A stretch of 64,000 bases of DNA, taken from contig JALJCO010009073.1 of assembly GCA_023101725.1 (NCBI GenBank), positions 1-64,000 on the forward strand, read 5' to 3'. The notes under the pieces are model-generated. The model was given only the letters and a program-made list of their open reading frames with translations, was not told where the DNA came from and ran no database searches. The DNA comes from Atherinomorus stipes. Lineage: Eukaryota > Chordata > Actinopteri > Atheriniformes > Atherinidae. Position 1 is the first letter of the stretch, and the number at the start of each line of letters is the position of its first letter. Shown piece after piece: positions 18,560 through 55,590 of the stretch. The position numbers and the translations under genes are program-made.

Positions 18560-18925
18560 AAAATGTTTGTAATGGCTTCCCATGCTCTTCCGTCTCTGTC
18601 TGTCCATCATCGTCCCTGCTCTCCTCGCCCTTCACAGGAACCTCATCCAGGTTGGAGGCGGATGGGTGCTCCTCTGTGAAGGACTCCAAAAAACCCATCA
18701 CAGAACTGCAGCACCACACACGGCCCACCTCCAGCCCCTCTGGCCCACCTCCAGCCCACCTCCGGCCCGCCTCCAGCCCACCTCCAGCCCACCTCCGGCC
18801 CACCTCAGGCCCACCCACTTCCCCTCCTGTCATCTGGCTTCTTTCGCCTCCTGTAGTGGTCCCTCAGACCTTTCCATTTCTTTCTGCAATCTTCAGCTAA
18901 TGGACAGAGAACTCAAATAATTGTC
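18560..18925 (-). pseudogene. MADF/Myb-like domain fragment (Harbinger-type) with internal minisatellite
   Basis: The - strand from about 18910 reads LAEDCRKKWKGLRDHYRRRK, the third helix region of a MADF domain as in PIF/Harbinger accessory proteins. A stop follows at about 18822. After the 11-bp array the frame gives SVMGFLESFTEEHPSASNLD, the part that usually follows MADF by a few residues. The domain start is missing. It may equally be a remnant of a host MADF gene; no exons or promoter are seen. Confidence 0.6.
18722..18815 (-). repeat. 11-bp minisatellite inside the MADF frame
   Basis: About eight units of GGTGGGCYGGA on the - strand. The array separates two parts of one protein that are normally close together. 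Confidence 0.85.
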
Positions 18926-19129
18926 CAGCAAACCTGAATCAAAACGGAATAAAAAATTAGCACGTTTTCAGCAAACTCTGGACACTAAATGAGATATATT
19001 TAATTATACGTGATCTGTCAATACATGACGTTTGCAACGACTTTCCACAGCACACGTCAAGATATTTTTGCTCCATTTAAACGGCACTTAGTTTTCAAAT
19101 CCTACTGATAAAATGCTGTGTTGTGCAGT

Positions 19130-19523
19130 CGGGCTGCGACGATTAGTCGATTAATCGACAACCATTGATTATCAAAATAGTCGACTAATTTTGTAATCGA
19201 CTAATCGTTTATTGTTTGTAAGCTTTGCTTTTCCTCTCACAAATGCTGCTGTACCTTCCACTGGCTTGTCTGCCTTTCTCTCTGGTCAGTTTTTCTTGAT
19301 TATATATATATTTACTATAGGGGCGGGGGGCCCCAAAGGGGGGGGGGACAGGAGGGCATGGGGGCAAAAGGGACTTGTTAACATAAATAAACACACACAC
19401 TACCAGTCACACGTTTTCCATTAGATTAAATGGGAAAGTGTCCAAACTTTTGACTGCTACTGTAAATATGCTGCAATTTGGTGACTAATCGACTATGAAA
19501 ATTATCGTTTGTGACAGCGTTAT
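19130..19523. mobile_element. hAT-type MITE with 8-bp target duplication
   Basis: Flanked by TGTGCAGT at 19122-19129 and 19524-19531. The left end GGGCTGCGACGATTAGTCGA and the right end (inverted, CGCTGTCACAAACGATAAT) are imperfect terminal repeats. AATCGACTA motifs repeat within. About 19300-19380 holds a TA run and a G-rich patch that may be a nested insertion. Confidence 0.7.
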
Positions 19524-19531
19524 TGTGCAGT

Positions 19532-22122
19532 GTGTCATCTCATTCAGATCAAGCAAGAAAGGCTAGCATGCTAGGCTATGTTCCTATTTTTTTGCTATTT
19601 CTGTTATTACCGTCCATTTTTTAAAAACTCACCGGACCAACCAACCACCTCTGCAACGCGATCCCAAACAACATTCTTTTTTATTTTGATCGCAGTAGTC
19701 AAACAGACGAACATTATGAAGGACGGGACGTGCCTGAACAGTGGTTCTCGGCATCCATGACGGAACGAGTGTGTTCTAGGAACCGACTGCTCTCATTGAA
19801 AATGTCCGAACTTTTGCAGCTCTGACTTTGAATGCAAGTCAGTGTTGATCTTGAACTTCAACTGAGAATCTGTGGAGGAAAAGAAAATGGAAATCAGCAT
19901 CACCTCACAATAATTCACCTGAAATATAAGAACCAAACTTTGTCTTTAATTCTTAAGATATAAGCTGATTAAATTCTTAGAATGATGTAAAAAGATTCAA
20001 ATATGGGCAATTCTAGTGTTCTGGACGTTACATTCAGAGAGGAAATTGGAAAACAAGCTTGCCATTGACAAGCTATTGATTTGAATTAGAAAATTAAATA
20101 CGTAACTGATTATGAACGACGAGGTGTCCATTATCAGAAATTATTGGACGACATGGAGGCACGATGGACGGTTTCCTCCACAAAGCCCATTAATTTCTGA
20201 TAATGGACACCTCATCGGGAAAGAAATAACGTTGAGCCAATTATTAATATGTTAATGTTGTTTTTACCGTTGAAATCAGTTTTTCACTAGAAGAGGCTGA
20301 GCAGATATTCAACGTCTTCCGTGACGCTACCAGCCGACTCTCGCCACAGCACCTGCAGCTCAGTCGGACTGCAGCTGTTAATCCGGCCTGATCAGAGGAG
20401 GGAAGTCAGATTATTGCTAAAAATGTTTTCTGATAGCAAGTTTTATTCCAGAGGGACTGACGGATCCCAGTCTGCCTGCAGGCTGCTTTCACAGCGATGC
20501 GCCGTCACGGACACGATCCGGCGCAGACACCTGCAACAGGTCGGGTACCTAACAGGTGCACAGATTAAACTTCACATACAGGTGTGGGCGGATATTTATT
20601 TAGTGCAGGCGTGTCGTGGGTGAGACCGTGTTTTTTTTCTTTCTTCTTATTTCGGTCTACATTACAAATGTTTCACTTTCCCATCATCCATGCAGCTGTG
20701 AGTCTTTCTCCACAGCTGGAAGCAGAGGTGCTGGATGAGATCTTGTTTAAGCAGCAATCTCTGAATAACACCAATAAAGCCTCCAAATGGCAAAATAAAA
20801 GATCACAGGGTCGAGGTTCAGTGTGACATGTTAACACATTATTGCTCCGTAAAATAAACTCTACCTGCTGTGTTTTTCTCTTTTTCTTATTGCAAATGAA
20901 AACGTAACAAAGCAGTTGGTTATCACATTAAACCATCTACAGGAATGAATGAGGGAAAGAAACGCGGTAAATGGAGGGAGGGGGGGTGTGCAGGTTGTTC
21001 TTTTCTTGTTTGTTTTTTTAACATCAGCAGGTGACTGGAAGATGCTGGGACACGGGTCGGGTTTGATATTCATCCTCACGGGTTTCGGGGTGTGGGTTGG
21101 ACCCGTGCAGGACTCTGCTCTGGCGTGTTCCAGCCCGGCGTTCGAGTCGACCCACATCCGAGCTCCGGAGGCTGTGGGTCGTGTTAATCTGTGACAGACC
21201 CACCTTAAAGAAACAACAACTCATGTTCTGTCTATCATCTTGCTGTTGTGGTGAAATAAACTGTAAAATAACTTATGTCAGTGCATATTCTGAGTCTCTG
21301 TTGCTACGGTTACCAAATAGTGTCTGAGCCAGCGCACTGATTTAAAACAATCATTTGACCAGAACTTCTTTATAGGTGCCCTACATGACTTTTTAACGGA
21401 CAACCTGCAGCCAATCAGAGCTGGGTATTCCCCCCTACCGTGGTATAAACAGATTTTAGTTACACTGACTGGGATCTTACATAAACCTGAAATATAAAAT
21501 GTTTTGACCCCTTGTATTTTGAAAAAAGAGGAAAATACCGAGCATTATAAATGTCAAGGAAAAGGACAAGTTTTCAGACTCACTGAACACATGATGGAAA
21601 CTCTGAACTGTTCTGTTAAAGACCGACATGTTTCATATTTTGTTGGGAAGGTTTGAGAAACCCAAAAGCACATTCAGGAAAACGTGTTTTCGGCAACTTT
21701 TTTTCATGGTGAGGTTGACATTTGCATTAAACTGCCCAGATAAACCTTCTCGCTGAATGTCCCAGTTCAATTTAAAACATATTAATAATAAATGTGGAAC
21801 CACAAATGTGACATCTTCACTCCGTTATGACGTAATGGAAGAGAAGCCTAAATGTGGTTTCCTCCGTAGAAAAACTGAATCAGAGTGAAACACTTACAGT
21901 CTGGAAATGACTTCCTACAGCTTAAGAACAGGAAGACGAGGGTCTGCTTCTGCACATTCTGGACAGCATCACTTCTCCTGTTTCAGAGACTGTACTCGGT
22001 ACCTTTCCCCAAAAAATGAGACAACAGAGAGCAACATGAATGAAAATGGGTACATGTATTTATGCACGACTGTGATTTGAAAAAAAAAAAAGAAAGTAGT
22101 ATTATGACTTTGTAGGCTGAAC
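19532..22122. other. no gene recognised apart from a foldback
   Basis: Short open frames here (for example 20321-20623 and 20949-21194) have no recognisable family or splice context. Base composition is ordinary. The fold-back at 20121-20213 is listed separately. Confidence 0.4.
20121..20213. repeat. foldback: 23-bp perfect inverted repeat with 47-nt loop
   Basis: GAGGTGTCCATTATCAGAAA plus TTA (20121-20143) is perfectly inverted at 20191-20213. Outer flanks pair weakly. It may be the core of a small MITE; no target duplication was found. Confidence 0.85.
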
Positions 22123-22263
22123 ATGCTTTTCAAAAGCATTGTAGAAGAAATGGAGGGACATGACATAAACATGCAAGCCACATTCACTGAAGGCCAGACG
22201 TCAGAGGACACATCCCTTCTGAAGATCTCAGAAAGCATCAACAGCGTACCTCGTATACAATGA
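22123..22263 (+). other. 46-codon open stretch of unknown origin
   Basis: An ATG frame beginning MLFKSIVEEMEGHDINMQAT ends at TGA 22261-22263, just before the Rex1-like LINE begins at 22317. Composition looks protein-like, but no family is recognised. It may belong to another broken transposon. Confidence 0.25.
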
Positions 22264-22316
22264 TCTGGCAGCTGAAGAGATTCTACGTGAAGCTTTGACG
22301 AAGAATGGGGTCTATC

Positions 22317-23490
22317 AGTGATGGACAAGAAGCTGAGTACAGGGAACTGGTCAGTCAGTTTGTGAAATGGTAACAATCAGCTCATCTTAAATACCAGCAA
22401 GACTAAAGAGATGATTGTTGACTTCAGGAGGAGCAAGAATAAGCAGCATAGTCCTGTCTACATCCTGGAAGAGGAGGTGGAGGTGGTGGAGAACTACAAA
22501 TACCTGGAGTTCAGCTGGACAACAGACTCGACTGGAAATGCAACAGTGACTACATCTACAAGAAAGGTCAGAGCAGACTCTACTTCTTAAGGAAGCTGAG
22601 ATCATTCAACGTCTGCACCAAGATGCTGCAGATCTTCTACAAGTCTGTTGTGGAAAGTGCAATTAGCTTTGCAGCATCTGCTGGGGCAGCAGCATCAGAA
22701 CCAGAACCAGAGACTTGAAGAAACTAAACAAGCTGATCAAGAAAGCTGGTTCTGTGCTGGGGAGAACTCTGGAACCGCTGGAGATGATCGTTCAGCAAAG
22801 AATGCTGCATAAGCTGATGAAGATGATGGAGGATTCTCCATCCTCTCCACAAGCTGATGAAGATGATGGAGGATTCTTCCTCCTCTCCACAAGCTGATGA
22901 AGATGATGGAGGATTCTTCCTCCTCTCCACAAGCTGATGAAGATGATGGAGGATGCTTCCTCCTCTCCACAAGCTGATGAAGATGATGGAGGATTCTTCC
23001 TCCTCTCCACAAGCTGATGAAGATGATGGAGGATTCTTCATCCTCTCCACAAGCTGATGAAGATGATGGAGGATGCTTCCTCCTCTCCACAAGCTGATGA
23101 AGATGATGGAGGATGCTTCCTCCTCTCCACAAGCTGATGAAGATGATGGAGGATGCTTCCTCCTCTCCACAAGCTGATGAAGATGATGGAGGATTCTTCC
23201 TCCTCTCCACAACACGGTGAAGAATGTTCAGTGGGAGGCTGCGTCAGGTTCATTGTAGGACGGAGAGATACAGAAAATCATTCCTGCCAGCAGCATCACC
23301 CTAAAGAACAAGACTGACTGACTGACTTGATATTATTATTATCAATGTTATATTGTTAAAAACAAAACAAAACAAAACAAAAAAAACAAAAAGAAAAGAA
23401 AAAGAAAAGAAAAGAGCTTTTTTACATTGTCGAATTTCCCTCCTGGGATAAGTAAAGTATTTTTCATTTAATTTCATTTAATTTCATTTC
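22317..23490 (+). mobile_element. Rex1/CR1-like LINE, 5'-truncated, with internal array
   Basis: The same family as 967-2095. It starts in the mid RT region (NTSKTKEMIVDFRRSKNKQ in the frame near 22390) and continues with KKGQSRLYFLRKLRSFNVC (about 22560). Then come KKLNKLIKKAGSVLGRTLEP (about 22715), the last coding part, and the 3' UTR. The tail of ATTTCATTT-type repeats ends near 23490. The coding end is expanded by the 40-bp array at 22811-23210. Several shifts and stops are present. Confidence 0.85.
22811..23210 (+). repeat. 40-bp array, 10 copies, inside the LINE coding end
   Basis: Each unit starts AAGCTGATGAAGATGATG and ends CTCTCCAC. The first unit follows directly on the LINE codons for RMLHKLMKMMED, and the element resumes after the last unit. 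Units are nearly identical, with TTCC/CTCCA/GCTTCC variants. Forty is not a multiple of three, so the frame rotates. Confidence 0.97.
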
Positions 23491-23858
23491 ATTCAGGTGT
23501 CATAAGCTGCTGTTTTACATCCACAATCCTTCTTAAATTATCTTCAAATAAATTTTTAATTCTATTTGGGTGGGACGAAAATTTAATGAGCTCATTTTAA
23601 CCTCTTTTTATCTCCAACTATTGTTTGTCGCGATAACACGTACGCGAATCAGAGCTGTCTGTAAACGCGTTCACGAGGCAAACTTCAAAGCCAAAACAAA
23701 GTTTTATCAGGACAGAGCAGGTGAAGGAAATGATGTCCCAGCAGAGAAAAACGTGATAAAAACGTAACGGCGCGGTTGATGGAGAGAATCCGGAGTAAAA
23801 GGGCTGGACTCTGATGAATATAAGGAGCAGACGTCTGACGTGAAGTTAACCAAACAGT
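23491..23858. other. no recognised feature
   Basis: Sequence between the LINE tail and a MITE; the small frame at 23570-23767 has no recognisable family. Confidence 0.4.
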
Positions 23859-24486
23859 GGCCACGTTTACATGGAGACTTTTTTTTCCCTTTCGGATTGA
23901 AATCATTCTGATTGAGGATTTCAGGGCAGCTGTTTACATGGGAACTAATTCATTCGGATCTGGCGTGTACATGCGCCAACATTTATTCAGAATAATCCTG
24001 CCTGACATGCGCAGAATGATGTAAATCACGTTATTTATTAAAGACGGAGGTCTACAAACAGCTGATCGTCACAGTCTTTGTGGTTTCTGCAGGACGTTAA
24101 TGAAGCAGCAGCTGATCCTCATGAGCTCCTGCTGGAAACAACCAAGAGGAAAAGCTGTAGAGACAGAGTTTGAGTTAAAAACACTTTCTCGCTGTCCAGT
24201 CGTTCACAGCCATCTGTCAAAGTGAGGAAACGTCACTTGTTTCACGTTGACGTCTTGTCGAAGCATGCGCTGTAAGAGTGCAACCTCACAACTTTCCAAT
24301 TCAGCGTTTACATGATTCCCCGTTCGGTTTGGGGAAAGGAATATTCTACCCCCGTGAAACCGAAAGAAAATTAATTTGGTTCTGCGCTTTTCATTCGGAA
24401 AGAGGCGTTTATATGGATCATTTTCATTATGAAAGAGCTTTTAAACCGAAAGCAATCGGTCTATTTGGGTCCATGTAAACGCAGCT
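23859..24486. mobile_element. non-autonomous DNA transposon with CGTTTACATGG ends
   Basis: CGTTTACATGG near 23864 is exactly inverted as CCATGTAAACG at 24471-24481. Inner parts carry further paired CGGAA/TTCCG-type segments, as in fish MITEs of this look. No target duplication was settled, so the superfamily is not assigned. Confidence 0.6.
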
Positions 24487-26449
24487 ACTGTTAGCTTCTG
24501 TAGCTACATTAGCAGCTTGTCCGCTCGTCTACCACCGTTTACTGGTCTCTGACACAAAAGATAATAAGTTACACAAGCAGCAACACTTACCGACTGCACA
24601 TCCTCACTGATAAATATAATCCACTGCTCCCTGGTAAAGCTGTCCCTCCTGTTACACTGAAAACTGATGAATTTCTGCCGAGGCAACTCAGCATGGCAAT
24701 CCCCCCCTCCCCCCTCCCTGTCATCCTCCTCCTCCTCCTCCTCCCTGACAAAGCTGGTCGTAACTCCTCCACGGCAGGTAATCAGCTGCTTTTAGGCTTT
24801 TAGGTGCTAAAGAGGCTAGCTTAGCAGCTAGCAGCCTCTCTCGTTCACATCATTGGGAGAAAGAAATCCAAACGGCGTACTGTGGAGAGCGCGTGCTTGT
24901 GGCCGGTTCTGGTGAGAAGAGAGCGCCGCACTCAAAGACGGAGTTACTTTCACTTTCCGGAGTTTCTGGCCCGTTATTACTGAGGTCCTGTTCCAGTACA
25001 TGTTTTAACGTGAAAAAGTGGATTTCCGGGTGATGACTCATTGAAATTTAAAAGATCCCGATAATCCGTCTGTGGGGATCATTATTTTTACAAACTAAAG
25101 CAGATATGTGGCTTTGGTCCACCACCTCATTGTCAAGCCCCTCCTCCCACCACCGTTACCACATGCACCCAGACATTTACCATGAGACACATGAAAGTGC
25201 ACTACATTTGGGACGGGGGGACGGGGGGGGCAATGCCTTTTGTTGAGTCATCATCATTCAGTGATTTAAATAAATATTTCCATTTGTTGTTAGAAGTGCA
25301 AAACCTATACTGGCTGCCCCCCCCCCCCCCCCCCCCCCGGCATAGCCCTGAGCCCCCCAGTTTGGTAGGGGGCTCAGGGATGATGGATTTAACGCCAGAA
25401 TTTGTAGTTTTGCCTGAAGTTTCTCTCTTTGATCATCAGCTTTAGTTTAACATCCGTGTATGTCTGTTGTGCTTGAAAGTCCCCCCGCCCCCTCATGTTT
25501 ACTTTGATATTGATGAAAGTAAACATGAATAAAAAGTTTATGAACATCATGTTACTGATTTTAAATGGTGGTTCAACAGAAATATTAAAGACAAACAAAA
25601 AATAAAACACGTAAACAAGCATGATGGGGCTCCGAAGCTAAAATGTTGCTAAGCAACGCTTTGATTCAATCACTGCAATCAGGTGTTTCTGTAACGTCCA
25701 ATCAGACGTCTGCACCTGCTGGCAGGTATGTGGGTCCATGTTCATGGGAAAGATGCTCTGATGTGTTTGGGACAGTTTTGTTTGTTTGTTTTTTTAAATT
25801 ATTTTTCTAAACCAAAGTTCAAAATTAATATTTCATTTTACTAAATCATAATTTAGTAATGTTTTCTTACATTCTTCAGTGTTGAGTTATTTGAACTACT
25901 GTTGTGAATTTATCCTTTTCTGTGATGGGAGGGGTGTAAACTTCCAGCACAGCTGTATAGGCCAACGGGAGGCTGGTTTCATGAATCAGCTCGCTACCTT
26001 AAGGCCCATGACCTCTGCATCCACCAGGAATCCTGCAGAGAAAACCATGCAAAGACAACGTCTCTGTAGACACAGTCCTGCTCTTTATTAATGAGAGATG
26101 AATGAAACGTGCTTGTCCTCCAGGAAATGAGTTGGCATACCAGGAGCAGCCTCTGGCTCCTTTCCACCGGCCCTTCAAGGAGCCCTTTATGTTTGTGCTG
26201 AGTCCAGGAGACGTGCAGCTATCAGGGGTCAGCGGTGTGACATCCAGCTGCTGGGCACCAAACTCTGGAAACAAAGAACCACTCTTTCTTTAATTGTCTG
26301 ATAAACCTCAGACAGGACAGAGAAACGACGGTGGAAACAATGTGATGTCGAAGCCCAGCAGACATCGAGATGGACAAAGAACCGCTTTCTTCTCAGAGCT
26401 TTATTGTTACTATAGCAATGCAGTATGGTACAACAAAAATATGAAGTGT
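24487..26449. other. no gene recognised
   Basis: It contains a run of 22 C at 25317-25338 and a G-rich patch near 25210-25230. A GT donor-like CAGTCGGTAAGTG is read on the - strand near 24596-24584, but no exon could be built. Open frames at 25999-26293 on both strands show no family. Confidence 0.4.
25317..25338 (+). repeat. C22 homopolymer
   Basis: Pure run of C, similar to the other long G/C tracts in the window. Confidence 0.95.
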
Positions 26450-29400
26450 AACGGGAGATTCTCACCACGATGAGGTGGAACGGGAGATTCTCATCATGAT
26501 GAGGTGGAACGGGAGATTCTCATCACGATGAGGTGGAACGGGAGATTCTCATCACGATGTGGTGGAACGAAGATTCTCATCACGATGAAGTGGAACGGGA
26601 GATTCTCATCGTGATGAGGGGGGAAGGGAGAGTGATGAGGTAGAACGGGAGGTTCTCATCATGATGAGGTGGAACGGGAGGTTCTCATCATGATGAGGTG
26701 GAATGGGAGATTCTCATCATGATGAGGTGGAACGGGAGATTCTCATCGTGATGAGTTAGAACGGGAGATTCTCATCACGATGAGGTGGAACGGGAGGTTC
26801 TCATCACGATGAGGTGGAACGGGAGGTTCTCATCACGATGAGGTGGAACGGGAGATTCTCATCGTGATGAGGTGGAACGGGAGGTTCTCATCGTGATGAG
26901 GTGGAACGGGAGATCCTCATCAAGATGAAGTGGAACGGGAGATTCTCATCATGATGAGGTGGAACGGAAGATTCTCATCATGATGAGGTGGAACGGGAGA
27001 TTCTCATCATGATGAGGTGGAACGGGAGATTCTCATCGTGATGAGGTGGAACGGGAGATTCTCATCATGATGAGGTGGAACGGGAGATTCTCATCAGGAT
27101 GAGGTGGAACGGGAGGTTCTCATCATGATGAGGTGGAACAGGAGATTCTCATCTGTGATGAGGTGGAACGGGAGATTCTCATCATGATGAGGTGGAACGG
27201 GAGATTCTCATTGTGATGAGGTGGAACGGGAGATTCTCATCATGATGAGGTGGAACGGGAGATTCTCATCATGATGAGGTGGAACGGGAGATTCTCATCA
27301 TGATGAGGTGGAACGGGAGATTCTCATCATGATGAGGTGGAACGGGAGATTCTCATCATGATGAGGTGGAACGGGAGATTCTCATCACGATGAGGTGGAA
27401 CGGGAGATTCTCATCGTGATGAGGTGGAACGGGAGATTCTCATCATGATGAGGTGGAACGGGAGATTCTCATCGTGATGAGGTGGAAGGGGAGATTCTCA
27501 TCACGATGAAGTGGAACGGGAGATTCTCATCGTGATGAGTTAGAACGGGAGGTTCTCATCACGATGAGGTGGAACGGGAGATTCTCATCGTGGATGAGGT
27601 AGAACGGGAGATTCTCATCATGATGAGGTGGAACGGGAGATTCTCATCGTGATGAGGTGGAACGGGAGATTCTCATCAGGATGAGGTGGAACGGGAGGTT
27701 CTCATCGTGATGAGGTGGAACGGGAGGTTCTCATCAGGATGAGGTGGAACGGGAGATTCTCATCGTGATGAGGTGGAACGGGGAGATTCTCATCATGATG
27801 AGGTGGAACGGGAGATTCTCATCGTGATGAGGTGGAACGGGAGATTCTCATCATGATGAGGTGGAACGGGAGATTCTCATCAGGATGAGGTGGAACGGGA
27901 GATTCTCATCATGATGAGGTGGAACGGGAGATTCTCATCAGGATGAGGTGGAACGGGAGATTCTCATCATGATGAGGTGGAACGGGAGATTCTCATCGTG
28001 ATGAGGTGGAACGGGAGATTCTCATCATGATGAGGTGGAACGGGAGATTCTCATCATAATGAGGTGGAATGGGAGATTCTCATCATGATGAGGTGGAACG
28101 GGAGATTCTCATCACGATGAGGTGGAACGGGAGATTCTCATCACGATGAGGTGGAACGGGAGATTCTCATCATGATGAGGTGGAACGGGAGATTCTCATC
28201 ACGATGAGGTGGAACGGGAGATTCTCATCATGATGAGGTGGAACGGGAGATTCTCATCGTGATGATGATGTGGTGGAACGGGGAGATTCTCATCATGATG
28301 AGGTGGAACGGGAGATTCTCATCGTGATGAGGTGGAACGGGAGACTCTCATCGTGATGAGGTGGAATGGGAGATTCTCATCACAATGAGGTGGAACGGGA
28401 GACTCTCATCGTGATGAGGTGGAACGGGAGTTTCTCATCGTGATGAGGTGGAACGGGAGATTCTCATCGTGATGAGGTGGAACGGGAGATTCTCATCGTG
28501 ATGAGGAGGAACGGGAGATTCTCATCATGATGAGGTGGAACGGGAGATTCTCATCACGATGAGGTGGAACGGGAGACTCTCATCGTGATGAGGTGGAACG
28601 GGAGATTCTCATCATGGTAGAGGTGGAATGGGAGATTCTCATCACGATGAGGTGGAACGGGAGATTCTCATTATGATGAGTTGGAACGGGAGATTTTCAT
28701 CGTGATGAGGTGGAACGGGAGATTCTCATCGTGATGAGGTGGAACGGGAGATTCTTATCGTGATAAGGTGGAATGGGAGATTCTCATCATGGTAGAGGTG
28801 GTATGGGAGATTCTCATAGTGATGAGGTGAAACGGGAGATTCCCATCGTGATGAGGTGAAACGGGAGATTCTCATCGTGATGAGGTGGAATGGGAGATTA
28901 TCATTGTGATGAGGTGAAACGGGAGATTCTCATCGTGATGAGGTGAAACGGGAGATTCTCATCGTGATGAGGTGAAACGGGAGATTCTCATCATGATGTG
29001 TTGGAAGTGGAGGTTCTCATCATGATGAGGTGGAACAGGAGATTCTCATCGTGATGAGGTGGAACGGGGAGATTCTCATCGTGATGAGGTGGAATGGGAG
29101 ATTCTCATTGTGATGAGGTGGAACGGGAGATTCTCATCATGGATGAGGTGGAACGGGAGATTCTCATCACGATGAGGTGGAACGGGAGATTCTCATCTTG
29201 GATGAGGTGGAACAGGAGATTCTCATCGTGATGAGGTGGAACGGGAGATTCTCATCGTGATGAGGTGGAACGGGAGATTCTCATCGTGATGAGGTGGAAC
29301 GGGAGATTCTCATCGTGATGTGGTGGAACGGGAGATTCTCATCGTGATGAGGTGGAACGGGAGATTCTCATCAGGATGAGGTGGAACGGGAGATTCTCAT

Positions 29401-30741
29401 CAGGATGAGGTGGAACGGGAGATTCTCATCATGATGAGGTGGAACGGGAGATTCTCATCACGATGAGGTGGAACGGGAGATTCTCATCAGGATGAGGTGG
29501 AACGGGAGATTCCCATCGTGATGAGGTGAAACGGGAGATTCTCATCGTGATGAGGTGGAACGGGAGATTCTCATCGTGATGAGGTGGAACGGGAGATTCC
29601 CATCATGATGAGGTGGAACGGGAGATTCTCATTGTGATGAGGTGAAACAGGAGATTCTCATCGTGATGAGGTGGAACGGGAGATTCCCATCGTGATGAGG
29701 TGAAACGGGAGATTCTCATCGTGATGAGGTGGAAGGGGAGATTCTCATTGTGATGAGGTGGAACGGGAGATTCTCATCATGGATGAGGTGGAACGGGAGA
29801 TTCTCATCACGATGAGGTGGAACGGGAGATTCTCATCTTGGATGAGGTGGAACGGGAGATTCTCATCGTGATGAGGTGGAATTGGAGGTTCTCATCATGA
29901 TGAGGTGGAACGGGAGATTCTCATCGTGATGAGGTGGAACGGGAGATTCTCATCGTGATGAGGTGGAATGGGAGATTCTCATCTGTGATGAGGTGGAACG
30001 GGAGATTCTCATCATGGATGAGGTGGAACGGGAGATTCTCATCACGATGAGGTGGAACGGGAGGATCTCATCTTGAATGAGGTGGAACGGGAGATTCTCA
30101 TTGTGATGTGGTGGAACGGGAGATTCTCATCGTGATGAGGTGGAACGGGAGATTCTCATCGTGATGAGGTGGAACGGGAGATTCTATTGACTCGGTGGAA
30201 CGGGAGATTCTCATCATGGATGAGGTGAAACGGGAGATTCTCATCACGATGAGGTGGAACGGGAGAATCTCATCTTGAATGAGGTGGAACGGGAGATTCT
30301 CATTGTGATGTGGTGGAACGGGAGATTCTCATCGTGATGAGGTGGAACGGGAGATTCTCATCAGGATGAGGTGGAACGGGAGATTCTCATCAGGATGAGG
30401 TGGAACGGGAGATTCTCATCGTGATGAGGTGGAACGGGAGATTCTCATCGTGATGAGGTGGAACGGGAGATTCTCATCATGATGAGGTGGAACGGGAGAT
30501 TCTCATCGTGATGAGGTGGAACGGGAGATTCTCATCATGATGAGGTGGAACGGGAGATTCTCATCGTGATGAGGTGGAACGGGAGATTCTCATCGTGATG
30601 AGGTGGAACGGGAGATTCTCATCAGGATGAGGTGGAACGGGAGATTCTCATCATGATGAGGTGGAACGGGAGATTCTCATCAGGATGAGGTGGAACGGGA
30701 GATTCTCATCAGGATGAGGTGGAACGGGAGATTCTCATCAC
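26450..30741 (+). repeat. 29-bp array of about 148 copies derived from Tc1 transposase
   Basis: A typical unit begins GATGAGGTGGAACGGGAG and ends TCTCATCAT. The last unit runs straight into Tc1 coding sequence at 30742. In the Tc1 frame the unit reads as E-V-E-R-E-I-L-I, so the unit is a piece of that gene. The centre varies (ATCATGAT, ATCACGAT, ATCGTGAT, ATCAGGAT); the first variant gives the perfect palindrome CTCATCATGATGAG. Blocks recur at about 640 bp spacing (for example CTCATCTTGGATGAGG near 29192 and 29832), so larger duplications occurred. Open frames inside are not genes. Confidence 0.97.
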
Positions 30742-30860
30742 TGATGTGCAGCCAACATATCTGCAGCGACTGTGTGATGATATCATGTCAGTTTGGAGTG
30801 AAATCTCAGGAATATTTCCAGCACCTTGTTGAGACTTTGACATCAAGCATTCAGGCTGGG
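30742..30860 (+). pseudogene. Tc1 transposase C-terminal fragment
   Basis: In frame with the last array unit, it reads DVQPTYLQRLCDDIMSVWSE, then after a shift SQEYFQHLVETLTSSIQAG, the C-terminal part of fish Tc1 transposases. There is no terminal repeat. It identifies the origin of the 29-bp array. Confidence 0.85.
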
Positions 30861-33652: not shown

Positions 33653-33671
33653 CTACCTACCTAAGCTACCT

Positions 33672-34735
33672 GCGTAGCTTACCGTCACCATGTATGAATG
33701 AGGCTACATACGTAGCTTACCGTCACCAAATATGAATGAGGCTACATACGTAGCTTACCGTCACCACGTATAAATGAGGCTACATACGTAGCTTACTGTC
33801 ACCAAATATGAATGAGGCTACATACGTAGCTTACCATCACCACGTATGAATGAGGCTACATACGTAGCTTACCGTCACCATGTATGAATGAGGCTACATA
33901 CGTAGCTTACCGTCACCAAATATGAATGAGGCTACATACGTAGCTTACCGTCACCACGTATGAATGAGGCTACATACGTAGCTTACTGTCACCAAATATG
34001 AATGAGGCTACATACGTAGCTTACCGTCACCACGTATGAATGAGGCTACATACGTAGCTTACCGTCACCATGTATGAATGAGGCTACATACGTAGCTTAC
34101 CGTCACCACGTATGAATGAGGCTACATACGTAGCTTACCGTCACCAAATATGAATGAGAGTACATACGTAGCTTACCGTCACCATGTATGAATGAGGCTA
34201 CATACGTAGCTTACCGTCACCAAATATGAATGAGGCTACATACGTAGCTTACCGTCACCAAATATGAATGAGGCTACACACGTAGCTTACCGTCACCATG
34301 TATGAATGAGGCTACATACGTAGCTTACCGTCACCATGTATGAATGAGGCTACATACGTAGCTTACCGTCACCATGTATGAATGAGGCTACATACGTAGC
34401 TTACTGTCACCAAATATGAATGAGGCTACATACGTAGCTAACCGTCACCATGTATGAATGAGGCTACATACGTAGCTTACCGTCACCACGTATGAATGAG
34501 GCTACATACGTAGCTTACCGTCACCAAATATGAATGAGGCTACATACGTAGCTTACCGTCACCACGTATGAATGAGGCTACATACTCAGCTTACCGTCAC
34601 CACGTATGAATGAGGCTACATACGTAGCTTACCGTCACCAAATATGAATGAGGCTACATATGTAGCTTACCGTCACCGCGTATGAATGAGGCTACATACG
34701 TAGCTTACCATCACCACGTGTGAATGTGGCTACAT
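33672..34735 (+). repeat. 38-bp array A, about 28 copies
   Basis: The unit contains GAGGCTACATACGTAGCTTA followed by CCGTCACC and then CACGTATGAAT, CATGTATGAAT or AAATATGAAT. It has inverted arms GCTAC/GTAGC around ATAC. Copies are about 95% alike by eye. It ends against array B. Confidence 0.97.
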
Positions 34736-34741
34736 TTGTCT

Positions 34742-36180
34742 GGTGACGCGTGTGGGAACAGCTGTCTGGGGAATCCTGACGTGACGCGTGTGGGAACAGC
34801 TGTCTGGGGAATCCTGACGTGACGCGTGTGGGAACAGCTGTCTGGGGAATCCCGATGTGACGCGTGTGGGAACAGCTGTCTGGGGAATCCCGACGTGATG
34901 CGTGTGGAAACAGCTGTCTGGGGAATCCCGATGTGACGCGTGTGGGAACAGCTGTCTGGGGAATCCCGACGTGATGCGTGTGGAAACAGCTGTCTGAGGA
35001 ATCCTGACGTGACGCGTGTGGGAACAGCTGTCTGGGGAATCCTGACGTGACGCGTGTGGGAACAGCTGTCTGGGGAATCCTGACCATGACGCATGTGGGA
35101 ACAGCTGTCTGGGGAATCCTGACGTGACGCGTGTGGGAACAGCTGTCTGGGGAATCCTGACGTGACGCGTGTGGGAACAGCTGTCTGGGGAATCCTGACG
35201 TGACGCGTGTGGGAACAGCTGTCTGGGGAATCCCGACGTGACGCGTGTGGAAACAGCTGTCTGGGGAATCCCGACGTGACGCGTGTGGAAACAGCTGTCT
35301 GGGGAATCCCGACGTGACGCGTGTGGAAACAGCTGTCTGGGGAATCCCGACGTGACGCGTGTGGGAACAGCTGTCTGGGGAATCCCGACGTGATGCGTGT
35401 GGAAACAGCTGTCTGGGGAATTCTGACGTGACGCGTGTGGGAACAGCTGTCTGGGGAATCCTGACGTGACGCGTGTGGGAACAGCTGTCTGGGGAATCCT
35501 GACGTGACGCGTGTGGGAACAGCTGTCTGGGGAATCCCGATGTGACGCGTGTGGGAACAGCTGTCTGGGGAATCCTGACGTGACGCGTGTGGGAACAGCT
35601 GTCTGGGGAATCCTGACGTGATGCGTGTGGGAACAGCTGTCTGGGGAATCCTGACGTGACGCGTGTGGGAACAGCTGTCTGGGGAATCCTGACGTGACGC
35701 GTGTGGGAACAGCTGTCTGGGGAATCCTGACGTGACGCGTGTGGGAACAGCTGTCTGGGGAATCCTGACGTGACGCGTGTGGGAACAGCTGTCTGGGGAA
35801 TCCTGACGTGACGCGTGTGGGAACAGCTGTCTGGGGAATCCTGACGTGACGCGTGTGGGAACAGCTGTCTGGGGAATCCTGACGTGATGCGTGTGGGAAC
35901 AGCTGTCTGGGGAATCCCGACGTGATGCGTGTGGGAACAGCTGTCTGGGGAATCCTGACGTGACGCGTGTGGGAACAGCTGTCTGGGGAATCCTGACGTG
36001 ACGCATGTGGGAACAGCTGTCTGGGGAATCCTGACGTGACGCGTGTGGGAACAGCTGTCTGGGGAATCCTGACGTGATGCGTGTGGGAACAGCTGTCTGG
36101 GGAATCCCGACATGATGCGTGTGGGAACAGCTGTCTGGGGAATCCTGACGTGACGCGTGTGGGAACAGCTGTCTGGGGAG
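34742..36180 (+). repeat. 38-bp array B, about 38 copies
   Basis: The unit contains GTGACGCGTGTGGGAACAGC then TGTCTGGGGAATCCTGAC (or CCCGAC). It is CpG-rich and holds TGACGTGA across unit joins plus the palindrome ACAGCTGT. With 38 not divisible by three and no stop in any phase, all three - strand frames stay open for over 500 codons; these are not genes. Confidence 0.97.
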
Positions 36181-36304
36181 CAACAGAAACCACTGGTGGC
36201 CAACGATGAGAATACCCATGAGAAGTCAGAAGTTTGTAGTTCACCCTTCATCCGCTAGGGACCGCAAACCAGAGCAGATCCCCATGTTACAAAGACCAAC
36301 TTCA

Positions 36305-37254
36305 CAGCAGGAATAAACATGTTTACAGCAGATATAAACATGTTTACAGCAGGAATAAACATGTTTACAGCAGGAAGAATCATGTTTACAGCAGGAATAA
36401 ACATGTTTACAGCAGGAAGAATCATGTTTACAGCAGATATAAACATGTTTACAGCAGGAATAAACATTTTTACAGCAGGAAGAATCATGTTTACAGCAGG
36501 AATAAACATGTTTACAGCAGGAAGAATCATGTTTACAGCAGATATAAACATGTTTACAGCAGGAATAAACATTTTAACAGCAAATATAAACATGTTTACA
36601 GCAGGAATAAACATGTTTACAGCAGGAAGAAGCATGTTTACAGCAGAAATAAACATGTTTACAGCAGATATAAACATGTTTACAGCAGGAATAAACATGT
36701 TTACAGCAGGAAGAAGCATGTTTACAGCAGAAATAAACATGTTTACAGCAGATATAAACCTGTTTACAGCAGGAAGAATCATGTTTACAGCAGATATAAA
36801 CATGTTTACAGCAGATATAAACATGTTTACAGGAGATATAAACATGTTTACAGCAGAAATAAACATTTTTACAGCAGAAAAAACATTTTACAGGAGATAT
36901 AAACATGCTTACAGCAGGAATAAACATGTTTACAGCAAGAAGAAGCATGTTTACAGCAGAAATAAACATTTTTACAGCAGAAAAACATTTTACAGCAGAT
37001 ATAAACATGTTTACAGCAAGAAAAATCATGTTTACAGCAGATATAAACATGTTTACTGCAGAAATAAACATGTTTACAGCTGAAATAAACATTTTAGAGC
37101 AGAAATAAACCCGTTTACAGCTGAAATAAACATTTTACAGCAGATATAAACATGTTTACTGCAGAAATAAACATGTTTACAGCTGAAATAAACATTTTAC
37201 AGCAGAAATAAACATGTTTACAGCTGAAATAAACATTTTACAGCAGATATAAAC
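36305..37254 (+). repeat. 21-bp array, left part
   Basis: About 45 units of the form GTTTACAGCAGGAATAAACA plus T. The core GTTTAC joined to AAACAT gives TAAACATGTTTA, a forkhead-type palindrome. Twenty-one is seven codons, so long open frames (MFTAGIN-type repeats) arise without being genes. The same array resumes at 38003 after a MITE. Confidence 0.97.
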
Positions 37255-38002: not shown

Positions 38003-38456
38003 ATATAAATATGTTTACAGCAGGAAAAAGCATGTTTACAGCAGATATAAACATGTTTACTGCAGAAATAAACATGTTTACAGCTGAAATAAACATTTTA
38101 CAGCAGAAATAAACCCGTTTACAGCTGAAATAAACATTTTACAGCAGATATAGACATGTTTACTGCAGAAATAAACATGTTTACAGCTGAAATAAACATT
38201 TTACAGCAGAAATAAACATTTTACAGCAGATATAAACATGTTTACAGCAGGAAAAAGCATGTTTACAGCAGATATAAACATGTTTACAGCAGAAATAAAC
38301 ATGTTTACAGCTGAAATAAACATTTTACAGCAGATATAAACATGTTTTCTGCAGAAATAAACATTTTACAGCAGTAATAAACATTTTACAGCAGATATAA
38401 ACATGTTTACAGCAGGAAAAAGCATGTTTACAGCAGACATAAACATGTTTACTGCA
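38003..38456 (+). repeat. 21-bp array, right part
   Basis: About 21 more units. The multi-unit pattern with CAGCTGAAATAAACATTTTA is shared with 37070-37250, so the MITE split one array. It ends about 375 bp before the aldh1a3 start codon. Confidence 0.95.
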
Positions 38457-46387: not shown

Positions 46388-46598
46388 AAGACCTGATCCA
46401 GACCTGATCTAGACCTGATGTAGACCTGATCTAGACCTGATGTAGACCTGATCTAGACCTGATCTAGACCTGACGTAGACTGATCTAGACCTGATCTAGA
46501 CCTGATCTAGACCTGATCTAGACCTGACGTAGACCCGATCTAGACCTGATCTAGACCTGACCTAGACCTGATCTAGACCTGACGTAGACCTGATCTCG
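46388..46598 (+). repeat. 11-bp array in intron 3
   Basis: About 19 units of AGACCTGATCT with ATGT/ACGT variants. Many joins give the palindrome-like GATCTAGA. Confidence 0.95.
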
Positions 46599-49258: not shown

Positions 49259-49388
49259 ACCCTGGAGACTCTGGACACCGGCAAGCCGTTCCTGCAGTCC
49301 TTCTTCATCGACCTGGAGGGAAGTATCCGAACTCTCCGATACTACGCAGGCTGGACCGACAAGATCCACGGCCAGAGTCTGCCTGTAG
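49259..49388 (+). CDS. aldh1a3: aldh1a3-like exon 4
   Basis: 130 nt, acceptor GTTCTTCAG, donor GTAG|GTGAGT, ends in phase 1. It encodes [20 protein letters not shown] then [16 protein letters not shown], the conserved block before the cofactor site. Intron 3 before it is 9.4 kb, most of it arrays. Confidence 0.95.
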
Positions 49389-49514
49389 GTGAGTGTGGGT
49401 GTCACGGCCCCCGGTGGCGAGGAGGAGGCCTGGTGATGTCTCACTGCAAATTGTTTCATCAGAAATGGAGCAGCTGGAACAGAGATCAGAAATGTTTTGC
49501 ATGTTTTGGTTCTT

Positions 49515-50189
49515 CAGCACACCTGATGCATCCTCCTGGACCTCACTGCTGCATTTGACACGATCAACCAAACCATCTTACTCCCATCCCTCCTCCACAT
49601 GGTAACACCCTCTCTTGGCTAGCTTCATATCTTGCAGACCGGAAACATCTCCATCAATAATGCCCCCCTGTCCCAAGGAGTCCCCCAGGGTTCAGTGCTT
49701 GGTCCTCTCCTGTCCATCCTCTACACCCTCCCCCTCAGTCAGATCATCCAACACCACGGTCTCCATTTCCATTGCTATGCTGATGACATTCAACTTTACA
49801 TATCCACCAAATCCATCACTCCCCAAACCCACAGCACGCGATCAAACGGTCTCTGACATCAACCACTGGATACAAAACAGTTTTCTCAAGCTTAACTCTA
49901 GCAAGTCAGACGTACTCGTACTCGATTGCCTCACCTCCACTCTCAAAGATTTCCGTCTTTCAGTTGATAACTCCATCCTGTCATCCTCATCCCATTGCCG
50001 TAACCTCGGTGTTATCTTTGATCCAAAACTCACCTTCACCCACCACATTAAATCTGTCACCAAAACAGCTTTCCACCCCCCCCCCCCCCCCCCCCCCCTT
50101 ACTTCCCTTCAGTTGATTACTGCAACAGCATCCTTTATGGCATTCCCACCAATCTCCTCATCAGCCAATCACATGGCAGCAACTCACCG
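49515..50189 (+). mobile_element. L2-type LINE RT fragment, 5' portion
   Basis: [16 protein letters not shown] near 49530, then [20 protein letters not shown] and [10 protein letters not shown]. It continues through NLGVIFDPKLTFTHHIKSVT to a C23 run at 50076-50098, after which YFPSVDYCNSILYGIPTN follows. About 25 codons usual at this place are absent. The copy continues at 52173 beyond a Tc1 insertion. Confidence 0.85.
50076..50098 (+). repeat. C23 homopolymer inside the L2 copy
   Basis: Pure C tract standing where RT coding sequence is expected. Confidence 0.95.
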
Positions 50190-50194
50190 CATTT

Positions 50195-52172
50195 AGGCAT
50201 GGAGACATGGTGAAGACGATCTGCTGCAGTTCAAACCAGCATCAGAATGAGGAAGAACAGTGATTTACGTGACTTTGAACGTGGCATGGTCGTTGGTCTG
50301 AGTTTTTCAGAAACTGCTGATCTACTGGGATTTTCCTGCACAACCATCTCTAGGGTTTACAGAGAATGGTCCCAAAAAGAGAAAATATCCAGTGAGCAGC
50401 AGTTCTGTGGGTGCAAATGCCTTGTTGATGCCAGAGGTCAGAGGAGAATGGCCAGACTGGTTCCAGCTGATAGAAAGGCAACAGTAATTAAAATAACCAC
50501 TTGTTCCAACCGAAGTATTCAGAAGAGCATCTCTGAATGTACAACACATCCAACCTGGAAGCAGATGGGCTACAGTAGCAGAAGCAGAAGACCACACTGG
50601 GTGCCGCTCCTGTCAGCTAAGAACAGGAAACTGAGGCTACAATTCACACAGACTCACCAACATTGGACAATAGAAGATGGAGAAATGTTGCCTTGTCTGA
50701 TGAGTCTCCATTTCTGCTACCAAATTCAGATGTAGGCTCAGAATTTGGTGTCAACAACATGAAAGCATGGATCCATCCTGCCTTGTATCAATGGTTCAGC
50801 TTGGTGGTGGTGGTGTGATGGTGTGGGACAGATTTTCTTGGCCCACTTTGGGCCCCTTAGTACCAACGTGGCGGTTTAACCACCACAGCCTACCTGAGTA
50901 TTGTTGCTGACCATGTCCATCCCTTTATGACCACAGTGGAGCATCCTCTGATGCTGCTTCCAGCAGGAGAACGCGCCATGTCATAAAGATGACATCATCC
51001 AGCAGGAGAACGCGCCATGTCATAAAGATGACATCATCCAGCAGGAGAACGCGCCATGTCATAAAGATGACATCATCCAGCAGGAGAACGAGCCATGTCA
51101 TAAAGATGACATCATCCAGCAGGAGAACGCGCCATGTCATAAAGATGACATCATCCAGCAGGACAACGTGCCATGTCATAAAGATGAGATCATCCAGGAG
51201 GAGAATGCGCCATGTCACAACGATGACATCATCCAGCAGGAGAACGCGCCATGTCATAAAGATGACATCATCCAGCAGGAGAATGCGCCATGTCATAACG
51301 ATGACATCATCCAGCAGGAGAACGCGCCATGTCATAACGATGACATCATCCAGCAGGAGAACGCGCCATGTCATAACGATGACATCATCCAGCAGGAGAA
51401 CGCGCCATGTCATAAAGATGACATCATCCAGCAGGAGAACGCGCCATGTCATAAAGATGACATCATCCAGCAGGAGAACGCGCCATGTCATAAAGATGAC
51501 ATCATCCAGCAGGAGAATGCGCCATGTCATAAAGATGACATCATCCAGCAGGAGAACGCGCCATGTCATAAAGATGACATCATCCAGCAGGAGAACGCGC
51601 CATGTCATAAAGATGACATCATCCAGCAGGAGAACGCGCCATGTCATAAAGATGACATCATCCAGCAGGAGAACGCGCCATGTCATAAAGATGACATCAT
51701 CCAGCAGGAGAACGCGCCATGTCATAAAGATGACATCATCCAGCAGGAGAACGCGCCATGTCATAAAGATGACATCATCCAGCAGGAGAACGCGCCATGT
51801 CATAAAGATGGCATCATCCAGCAGGAGAACGCGCCATGTCATAAAGATGACATCATCCAGCAGGAGAACGCGCCATGTCATAAAGATGACATCATCCAGC
51901 AGGAGAATGCGCCATGTCATAAAGATGACATCATCCAGCAGGAGAACGCGCCATGTCATAAAGATGACATCATCCAGCAGGAGAACGCGCCATGTCATAA
52001 AGATGGCATCATCCAGCAGGAGAACACGCCATGTCATAAAGATGACATCATCCAGCAGGATAACGCGCCATGTCATAAAGCAGGAATCATATCAGACTGG
52101 TTTTTGAACATGACGATGAGTTCATTGTTCTCAAATGTTCTCCACGGTCACCAGATCTCAATCCAACAGAGC
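50195..52172 (+). mobile_element. Tc1-like transposase fragment with expanded internal array
   Basis: A frame from 50247 reads MRKNSDLRDFERGMVVGLSF with the N-terminal helix-turn-helix region (SETADLLGFSCTTISRVYRE). Later frames give WSDESPFLLPNSD, NNMKAWIHPALYQ and the DDE-domain stretch around QQDNAPCHKAGIISDWF. The element then reads on to SPDLNPTEQ and stops at about 52172. No terminal repeats are seen and several shifts are present. The 39-bp array at 50961-52090 lies inside it. Confidence 0.88.
50961..52090 (+). repeat. 39-bp array, 29 copies, made of a Tc1 catalytic motif
   Basis: Each unit encodes QQENAPCHKDDII (13 codons), beginning CAGCAGGAGAACGCGCCATG. Twenty-eight full units precede a last one that keeps D in place of E and reads on into normal transposase. 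Variants (AACGAT, GGCATC) are sparse. Frame-preserving, so a 433-codon frame results; it is not a functional gene. Confidence 0.97.
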
Positions 52173-52612
52173 AGCAAATTCGTAATCCTCCTCCTCACCC
52201 ACAAAGCCCTCCATAACCAGCCCCCTCTGATCCTGAAGACATGCTTTACCCCTACACCCCCTCCTGTTCCCTCTGGTTTGCTACTGCAACCTCTTCATCA
52301 TCCCCAGGACCAAGCACCAAACCTGGGGGGACAGGGCCTTTTCTGTCATTGCCCCCACCCTCTGGAATTCTCTCCGTCAGCACATCGGCAGCACCACAGA
52401 CCCCGCCCAAATCACAACTTAAAACTCACCTATTTCCATCCGCTTTCATCACCTAATGTTCTTGGATGACTATGTTTTAATTTCGAACTTATTATTATTA
52501 TTATTATTATTGAACCGTACTGCATTTTATCTTGTTTTTGAATGTTCTTTTATCTTTTGACATTAACAGCAGCTTTGAGTTTTATGAAAAGCGCTATACA
52601 AATAAAATGTGT
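52173..52612 (+). mobile_element. L2-type LINE, 3' portion
   Basis: KFVILLLTHKALHNQPP directly follows the Tc1 break, then the C-terminal part, and a 3' UTR ending AAGCGCTATACAAATAAAAT. It fits the 3' part of the copy at 49515-50189, with about 35 codons lost at the insertion. Confidence 0.8.

Positions 52613-53498: not shown

Positions 53499-53503
<5 letters not shown>
53239..53503. mobile_element. MITE within a TA microsatellite
   Basis: Ends TAGGGCTGAAAGATAT and inverted TAGGGCTGAACGATATGG. Sub-terminal TATCG motifs repeat. It is flanked by TA runs on both sides, so the 8-bp duplication cannot be resolved. hAT-like by end sequence. Confidence 0.7.
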
Positions 53504-53542
<39 letters not shown>

Positions 53543-53560
53543 TGTATACGTAATATACAG

Positions 53561-54473
53561 ATACTACCCAAAAAATTTCAATACCCTGAAAAAGTTAATG
53601 TATTTCTGTAATTCAACTTAAAAGGTGCAATTTACATATTGTATAGACAAATAATATGTGAATCAATATATTTCAAGCTTTTATTTGTTTGGATGTTGCT
53701 GATTAGAAGTTGCAGCTTAAGACAACCTCAAACTCAAAAACTCCAAAAATGAGAATATTGTGAAAAGCTCCAGTATTGTAGCTCAGACTGTCACATTCTA
53801 ATCAGGTCAGTAATCCAAACACCTCCATAAGTACCCTGAGCCTTTAAAAAGTCTCTGTGTTGGTTTAGAAGAATTCACAATCATGGGGAAGATGCTGATC
53901 TGACAGTTGTGCAGAAAACCATCATTGACTCCCTGCACAAGGTGGAAAGACACAAAAAGTGTTAGAAAAGAAGCTGGATGTTCTCAGAGTGCTGTCTCAA
54001 AGCACATTAATGGACAGTTAAGTGGAAGGAAGAAGTGTGGAAGAAAACGGTGTAGAAGCCGGAGGGCTGACAGCAGCCTGAAGAAGATGGCCAGGAAAGG
54101 GCCTTTCAGACGTGTGGAGGACTTCATAAGGAATGGACCTGTGAGCTTCATCAAGTCCAGCATCAATGCAGCCGTCTACCAGGACATTTTGGAGACCTTC
54201 ATGCTTGCTTCAGTGGACCAGCTGTATGGGGATGCAGACTTCATCTTCCAGCAGGACTTGGCACCTGCCCACACTGCCAAAACTACAAAATCCTGCTTCA
54301 ACAACCATGGATCACCATGCTGGATTGGCCCGCAAACCCACCTGACCTGAACCCCATTGAAAACATGTGGGACATCGTCAGAGAAAGCTGAACGGGAAGA
54401 GAGCAAACAATAAAGAAGAGCTCAAGGCTGTGATGGAAGCATGTTGGTCTCCATAACAGCTGAGATATGCCAC
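53561..54473 (+). mobile_element. Tc1-like transposon, internally deleted
   Basis: About 53570-53900 has the leader typical of a common fish Tc1 family. Coding pieces follow: REAGCSQSAVSKHINGQLSG-like (near 53960, first residue K), then a deletion to KKMARKGPF, DADFIFQQDLAPAHTAKTT (near 54230), and after shifts SPDLNPIEN-like sequence. It runs straight into the 31-bp array, whose first unit is the codons for KLLASMPRRV. The 3' terminal repeat was not seen. Confidence 0.8.
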
Positions 54474-55590
54474 AAGCTGCTAGCATCCATGCCACGCCGG
54501 GTTAAACCTGCTGGCATCCATACCACGCCAGGTTAAAGCTTCTAGCATCCATTTCACGCCGGGTTAAAGCTGCTAGCATCCATGCCATGCTGGGTTAAAG
54601 ATGCTAGCATCCATGCCACGCCGGGTTAAAGCTGCTAGCATCCATGCCATGCCGGGTTAAAGCTGCTAGCATCCATGCCACGCTGGGTTAAAGCTGCTTG
54701 CATCCATTTCACGCCGGGTTAAAGCTGCTAGCATCCATGCCACGCCGGGTTAAAGCTGGTAGCATCCATGCAAAGCTGGGTTAAAGCTGCTAGCATCAAT
54801 GCCACACTGGGTTAAAGCTGCTAGCATCCATGCCACGCCGGGTTAAAGCTGCTAGCATCCATGCCACGCTGGGTTAAAGCTGCTAGCATCCATGCCACGC
54901 TGGGTTAAAGCTGGTAGCATCCATGCCATGCCGGGTTAAAGCAGCTAGCATCCATGCCACGCCAAGTTAAAGCTGCTAGCATCCATGCCACGCCGGGTTA
55001 AAGCTGCTAGCATCCATGCCACGCCAAGTTAAAGCTGCTAGCATCCATGCCACACCAAGTTAAAGCTGCTAGCATCCATGCCACGCCAAGTTAAAGCTGC
55101 TAGCATCCATGCCATGCCGGGTTAAAGCTGCTAGCATCCATGCCACGCCGGGTTAAAGCTGCTTGCATCCATTTCACGCCGGGTTAAAGCTGCTAGCATC
55201 CATGCCACGCCGGGTTAAAGCTGGTAGCATCCATGCAAAGCTGGGTTAAAGCTGCTAGCATCAATGCCACACTGGGTTAAAGCTGCTAGCATCCATGCCA
55301 CGCCGGGTTAAAGCTGCTAGCATCCATGCCACGCTGGGTTAAAGCTGCTAGCATCCATGCCACGCTGGGTTAAAGCTGGTAGCATCCATGCCATGCCGGG
55401 TTAAAGCAGCTAGCATCCATGCCACGCCAAGTTAAAGCTGCTAGCATCCATGCCACGCCGGGTTAAAGCTGCTAGCATCCATGCCACGCCAAGTTAAAGC
55501 TGCTAGCATCCATGCCACGCCAAGTTAAAGCTGCTAGCATCCATGCCACGCCAAGTTAAAGCTGCTAGCATCCAATCATGCCGGATTAAG
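54474..55590 (+). repeat. 31-bp array, about 36 copies, from a Tc1 C-terminus, with higher-order repeat
   Basis: The unit begins AAGCTGCTAGCATCCATG and ends CACGCCGGGTTA. It matches the Tc1 codons for KLLASMPRRV at the junction with the element. Variant units (GCTTGCATCCATTTC, GGTAGCATCCATGCAAAG, ATCAATGCCACACTG) recur in the same order with an offset of 465 bp (54696 and 55161), i.e. a 15-unit higher-order repeat. Confidence 0.97.

Follow-up and report, generated by a model that had tools for sequence, protein, structure and literature searches.

Minisatellites made of transposon coding sequence are probably carried by Tc1 and LINE families in the Atherinomorus stipes genome

A 64,000-base stretch of the Atherinomorus stipes genome, consisting of bases 1 to 64000 of the 69,741-base contig JALJCO010009073.1 and here called the window, raises the question of how several short segments of transposon coding sequence came to be tandemly amplified in one region of a 1.18-Gb genome (assembly GCA_023101725.1, 7,656 contigs). 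The original prediction had named five arrays, with periods of 29, 39, 31, 40, and 11 bp, and had read them as five separate births. Tandem Repeats Finder (TRF) indeed located every one of the arrays at its expected position (Table 1). Separate births, however, did not hold up, as other copies of the elements also carry the 39-, 31-, and 40-bp arrays, each at its same internal site. The copies that were read share site and unit and differ in length. We consider it probable that these are element-borne minisatellites, that is, repeats that ride on transposon families, are spread by transposition, and change in length locally. Since the same internal site is occupied elsewhere, the window's copies with 39-, 31-, and 40-bp arrays most likely arrived already holding the array or a founder duplication and were later altered in length.

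Four of the five units are transposon coding sequence, as had been proposed; the exception is the 11-bp unit, next to which there is only a weak MADF match (22.9 bits). The 39-bp unit corresponds to FQQDNAPCHKAGI of a Tc1 transposase (homologue P0081). That homologue has FQQDNAPCHKAGIISDW at the 39-bp site and, downstream, DVVEREIRIMDVQPTN, which is the 29-bp unit, and therefore the 29- and 39-bp arrays represent two sites of one family, which we call TcA. Single-copy forms of both sites also occur together on the same short stretches, such as those at loci L043 and L044. The 31-bp unit encodes HKLLASMPRRV, near the C terminus of the transposase of a second Tc1 family, TcB, and the 40-bp unit encodes HKLMKMMEDSSxPLH from the 3' coding end of a long interspersed nuclear element (LINE). 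The three Tc1 fragments of the window are thus different, as had been claimed, but two of their arrays trace to a single family. For the 39-, 31-, and 40-bp arrays, the element continues on both flanks.

The window's TcA copy scored 40.5 bits against PF01498 (cut-off, 31.5 bits), which identifies it as bearing a Tc1-type transposase domain. In tblastn comparisons, all 120 homologues of the TcA set matched positions 50173 to 51092, and 4 of the 120 matched positions 52041 to 52174. Terminal inverted repeats of at least 20 nucleotides were sought between positions 50100 and 53000, and none were found for this copy. A match to RVT_1 (reverse transcriptase) lies upstream, at about 49515 to 49826, and by our reading LINE-like sequence resumes past 52185, beyond TcA, so that TcA would be inserted within a LINE. 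A coding function for the 39-bp repeat, which spans 13 codons, was considered and rejected, as stops and frame changes interrupt the window's TcA. Also counted against such a function is the replacement by Glu, in most units, of the Asp of QQDNAPCH, which we take to be a catalytic residue.

Other TcA copies were sought with a 777-base query, and the best 40 of 4,472 first-look candidates were scored. This gave 39 other copies with 95 to 97% identity, 20 of which were read at the site of the 39-bp array. Two or more units were present in 14 of the 20 and a single unit in the remaining 6 (L032, L037, and L043 to L046), the number ranging from 1 to 15 or more. A derived form of the unit was found in all 14 multiunit copies. 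The right end of the array was reached in eight of these, and six of the eight (L031, L033, L034, L035, L036, and L039) consist of a run of derived units closed by one ancestral unit, just as in the window.

The TcB family gives a comparable picture. The middle of the transposase is missing from the window copy, whose DDE_3 match (18.4 bits) falls below the cut-off of 28.6. Its homologues, however, number 4,827, and the best of them is a 346-residue protein with both PF01498 and PF13358, which places TcB among the Tc1-type elements. The arms of the window's inverted repeat measure 61 nucleotides at 89% identity and could be extended outward by eye in L051 to L053. Five other TcB copies (L001 and L050 to L053) hold 1, 4, 2, 9, and 22 matched 31-bp units, respectively. 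The array is enclosed by terminal repeats on both sides in three of the five (L051 to L053). L001 shows the left terminal repeat only, its stretch stopping before the right one, and L050 shows the right one only, its left part being unaligned. The outer ends read CAGGTACTACCC ... GGGTAGTACCTG, and TA adjoins the right end in L050 to L053; at the left end, TA adjoins in the window and in L051, and CA in L053. The left part of the window's TcB was matched through over 784 bases in L001, L051, and L053 and over 783 bases in L052, and in L050 it was matched from base 234. L001, L051, L052, and L053 therefore share the internal deletion of the window copy. Within the window's own 31-bp array, a block of 15 units has been copied once (identity, 0.65 at a lag of 15 units), which is a local change.

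The LINE-derived array follows the same pattern. At seven loci with 1 to 7 matched 40-bp units, LINE sequence was found on the left in six and on the right in five, and one contig (C2212) holds 30 exact 40-bp seams, i.e., unit-to-unit junctions, across about 1.7 kb. CACAA stands on both sides of the LINE unit, a 5-bp repeat recognized by eye.

At the 29-bp site, the origin of the arrays could be approached through relatives that hold the segment only once. Six such relatives were tried, one of which proved too short a stretch, and direct repeats were compared at shifts of 15 to 60. In all five testable relatives, two GGATGTG copies 30 bp apart bracket the segment, and this repeat was the longest match. 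Locus L045, a TcA copy with one unit at the 39-bp site, has an array of the 30-bp type. GGATGTG stands at two of its three seams and GAATGTG at the third, and the form differs from the 29-bp GATGAG form of the window. The direct repeat of 7 bp, which belongs to the coding sequence, is the likely seed of the 29-bp arrays, and arrays at this segment may have started more than once. Nine 29-bp arrays elsewhere in the genome were sampled at 16 stretches. BLAST matches to Tc1 outside the 29-bp units were found at L061, L064, and L069 (left of the array on contig C121 and right of it on C153 and C160), and the opposite ends on C121 and C153 (L060 and L065) resemble Tc1 by eye. Short Tc1 pieces outside the units were found in L054 (42 bases, inverted; C35) and L058 (32 bases; C85), and L057, L059, and L068 consist wholly of 29-bp array.

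We searched the window's own genome for unit-to-unit seams, allowing up to two mismatches and including the window's own units in the counts. The searches returned 44,271 seams for the 29-bp unit, 12,167 for the 31-bp unit, 2,395 for the 39-bp unit, and 223 for the 40-bp unit, about 59,000 for the four transposon-derived units together, and reversed-pattern controls gave 0 for each of the four. At unit length, the 29-bp seams correspond to about 1.28 Mb, or 0.11% of the assembly. The 40-bp seam was present on 21 contigs among the 100 matches listed. In contrast, the second 38-bp array of the window, which shows no transposon evidence, has 72 seams on 4 contigs. Four contigs (C33, C153, C169, and C197) have both 39- and 31-bp seams among the matches listed.

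How such a distribution could arise has several possible answers. Five independent local accidents, as first envisaged, would agree with the composition of left flank, array, and right flank as one element for the 39-, 31-, and 40-bp arrays. But the same units occur at other loci, and at the same sites in the copies read, which contradicts local birth for these three arrays unless each copy began an array of its own, and we give the idea almost no credence. An assembly artifact is very unlikely as well. The window's contig is just 69,741 bases long, and contig C123 begins within a 29-bp array, both of which could hint at assembly trouble, yet arrays of differing length lie with their flanking sequence inside contigs and those of the window hold distinct unit variants. 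A more serious alternative is that gene conversion or ectopic exchange moves units from one element copy to another, without transposition. The many near-identical copies and the mixing of derived and ancestral units in one array would favor such exchange; array-bearing TcB copies, however, have their own terminal repeats in apparently unrelated flanks, with TA beside six of the seven outer ends read, the window's included. We regard exchange without transposition as unlikely. Finally, built-in direct repeats in the coding sequence could cause each inserted copy to start an array at the same place. The 7-bp repeat found in the single-copy relatives, the distinct 30-bp form of L045, and the CACAA on both sides of the LINE unit all speak for such recurrent birth. 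Against it, independent starts would not be expected to share one derived unit, as all 14 multiunit copies at the 39-bp site do, and no seed longer than 4 bp was found at the period of the array at the 39- and 31-bp sites. As a general account we find it doubtful, if still worth entertaining; recurrent birth at one site is compatible with transposon-borne arrays at the others.

Several observations also weigh against the carriage of arrays by the elements themselves. Two of the eight right-ended copies at the 39-bp site (L038 and L041) are without the ancestral end unit, and 6 of the 14 multiunit copies (L030, L040, L042, L047, L048, and L049) leave their stretch or are interrupted before the end. 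The share of 14 in 20 is biased upward, because the copies read were the top hits of a query that included 34 array bases. L045 may point to more than one birth at the 29-bp site, and the longest seed match at the period of the array was 4 bp at the 39-bp site and 3 bp at the 31-bp site, a 6-bp match in L045 lying at a shift of 25, which differs from that period. Not all of the nine sampled 29-bp arrays sit in recognizable Tc1 sequence, the remaining stretches of the 16 showing either no recognizable Tc1 or only a decayed likeness. Gene conversion between copies, too, offers another route by which units could have spread. The lone derived unit of L032, which abuts the right flank, would fit contraction of an array or a founder form alike.

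If the repeats do ride on the elements, the start would have been the tandem duplication of a short coding segment in a founder copy, in some of the Tc1 families and in one family of LINEs. Elements unable to make their own transposase would then have taken this duplication with them to numerous loci, the Tc1 copies presumably with the help of transposase acting in trans. The array would subsequently have grown, shrunk, and been homogenized locus by locus, perhaps via unequal exchange or slippage, and old copies may in some cases have shed the remaining element to leave free-standing arrays. A broader proposal, which we put forward tentatively and with more doubt than conviction, is that Tc1 families act as satellite nurseries in which internal direct repeats restart arrays, transposition seeds them through the genome, and aging elements fall away to leave the arrays on their own. 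The candidate stages are all present within one genome, namely, the single segment, the seed-bearing 30-bp form, short arrays in elements with terminal repeats, and a multikilobase array with a single recognizable element flank. Should this succession prove correct, one assembly would suffice to trace how a transposon turns into a satellite. The findings also caution against assuming that neighboring arrays each arose independently.

Minisatellites derived from transposons are already known, as are tandem repeats carried on miniature inverted-repeat transposable elements (MITEs), according to the available portions of PMC9659126, PMC12628747, and PMC3389668. The closest parallel is miDNA4 of Xenopus (Scalvenzi and Pollet), described in the accessible text of PMC12628747 as a nonautonomous Tc1/mariner MITE whose internal satellite ranges from a single monomer to arrays that differ in length, with short direct repeats at the array; in the model given for it, the element ends are lost from the arrays at a later stage. 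As in miDNA4, the TcB array lies between terminal repeats (at three of the five other loci with both), and unit numbers run from one upward, from 1 to 15 or more for the 39-bp unit and from 1 to 22 for the 31-bp unit. Direct repeats of at least 5 bp at the array edges were found for the 29/30-bp unit (7 bp) and, by eye, for the 40-bp unit (5 bp), but not for the 31- and 39-bp units. In contrast to what that text gives for miDNA4, the carriers here are degraded transposase-bearing copies rather than MITEs, and the units are transposase coding sequence, taken from TcA at two sites and from TcB at one. Xstir, also from Xenopus (Hikosaka and Kawahara), is presented in the same partial source as tandem repeats associated with a MITE, possibly derived from internal sequence of the element, with composite element-array forms; its origin there is the interior of a MITE and not a transposase coding region.

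For humans, Ahmed and Liang (2012) attributed at least 7,276 minisatellites and satellites, or 23%, to transposable elements, 300 of the transposon-derived arrays being bordered by direct repeats of 5 to 20 bp, as given in the available part of PMC3389668. The phenomenon is the same, and the 29-, 39-, 31-, and 40-bp units resemble a transposable element over at least one period, as in that census. The human survey proceeds by element family, however, and the part at hand does not describe an array common to the copies of one family. Satellites whose monomer originates in an element's interior or coding region include those from CR1 ORF2 (chicken HinfI) and LINE-1 ORF2 (Phodopus and Phoca), as listed in the accessible part of PMC9659126; these are retroelements, and no Tc1 transposase case appears in that part. 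In the available text of PMC12628747, "central parts of DNA transposons" are also given as a satellite source. Our literature search, the coverage of which mostly excluded subscription papers, returned no report of minisatellites from Tc1 transposase coding sequence, nor does the accessible portion of PMC5599695 contain one.

The original prediction had also suggested that this genome readily turns transposon segments into satellites. Arrays of this kind do occur elsewhere, but a general tendency was not borne out by a background sample of 20 stretches of 10 kb (200 kb), which is not strictly random, as it was drawn at chosen positions from large contigs with strong Tc1 matches. Arrays with a period of at least 10 and at least 5 copies numbered 1 in the sample, a simple, AT-rich one, versus 12 in the window, and the window therefore appears to be an exceptional cluster. 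In a test of matched sensitivity against the same 200 kb, 3 of 16 unit consensuses gave a match, compared with 4.7 to 10% of random segments, which is no clear excess. Indeed, there is no sign of an excess of transposon origin, because two of the three matching consensuses are those of the two 21-bp arrays. Named homologues were mostly from bony fish, with some from frogs and snakes, and Tc1 relatives in bacterial and viral contigs were sought and none found.

Table 1. Arrays, elements, and gene pieces located in the window
Feature	Position	Strand	Basis and remarks
11/22-bp GC-rich array	18721..18815		TRF, 8.6/4.4 copies
Short MADF-like piece (approximate ends)	18811..18897	-	22.9 bits, E=1.1e-4; adjoins 11-bp array
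LINE 3' coding end	22305..23295	+	Pfam label of piece, ALKBH8_N
40-bp array in LINE	22811..23212	+	TRF, 10.1 copies
29-bp array	26441..30746	+	TRF, 148.1 copies; TcA-family segment DVVEREIRIM
Tc1 C-terminal remnant	30747..30856	+	Continues 29-bp array rightward; no Tc1 recognized on left of array
38-bp array	33665..34735		TRF; unit single-copy at L028; seam found 4,497 times in genome
Second 38-bp array	34743..36179		TRF; low-copy, 72 seams, 4 contigs
21-bp array	36304..37254		TRF; unit also tandem at L010, 2.3 copies
Second 21-bp array	38005..38456		TRF; dispersed repeat as right flank
aldh1a-type gene exon	49259..49389	+	Pfam aldehyde dehydrogenase match
TcA, Tc1 copy with degraded transposase	50173..52180	+	PF01498, E=3.5e-10; tblastn; carries 39-bp array
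39-bp array	50959..52080	+	TRF, 28.8 copies; 13 transposase codons; (derived unit)n plus one ancestral unit
TcB, Tc1 copy	53558..55761	+	Internal deletion (joins FIRN to GPVSF); terminal inverted repeats long, the right one missing its outer part
31-bp array	54474..55574	+	TRF, 35.5 copies; C-terminal transposase codons; 15-unit block duplication

The MADF-like piece beside the 11-bp array covers 29 residues, with a score close to the cut-off of 22, and a six-frame scan of positions 17785 to 26440 did not return it at an E value of 0.01 or below. Both the origin of the 11-bp unit from MADF bases and the transposon nature of the piece itself are unproven.

The five arrays are only a subset, as the window holds 16 tandem arrays, which together occupy 17,462 of its 64,000 bases, the longest measuring 4.3 kb by TRF. 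Other periods include 30, 72, 15, 12, 25, 11 (at 46389), and 33 bp. Matches to dispersed repeats were also found for one 38-bp array, both 21-bp arrays, and the sequence to the right of the 33-bp array. Between 33317 and 37254, four arrays with periods of 72, 38, 38, and 21 bp are placed almost end to end, and a GC-rich 25-bp array of 139 copies extends from 42209 to 45508. Long A-rich tracts lie at 13347 to 13662 (316 bases) and 57856 to 58522 (667 bases). Transposon fragments without arrays are present as well, namely, LINE fragments at 287 to 607 (plus strand) and 1031 to 1764 (minus strand) and a Tc1 fragment at 63680 to 63865.

Part of the window appears to belong to an aldh1a-type gene. 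A second exon with a Pfam aldehyde dehydrogenase match lies at about 59708, and two more, near 39020 and 56360, were identified by motif alone. When the two Pfam-matched pieces were combined, the best matches among solved structures were ALDH1A3 and ALDH1A2. Arrays of 15, 12, 25, 11, 33, 39, and 31 bp lie between the aldh1a-type pieces (39020 to 59835, plus strand), and two of them, those of 39 and 31 bp, would by our reading lie in an intron of this gene that runs from 49.4 to about 56.3 kb.
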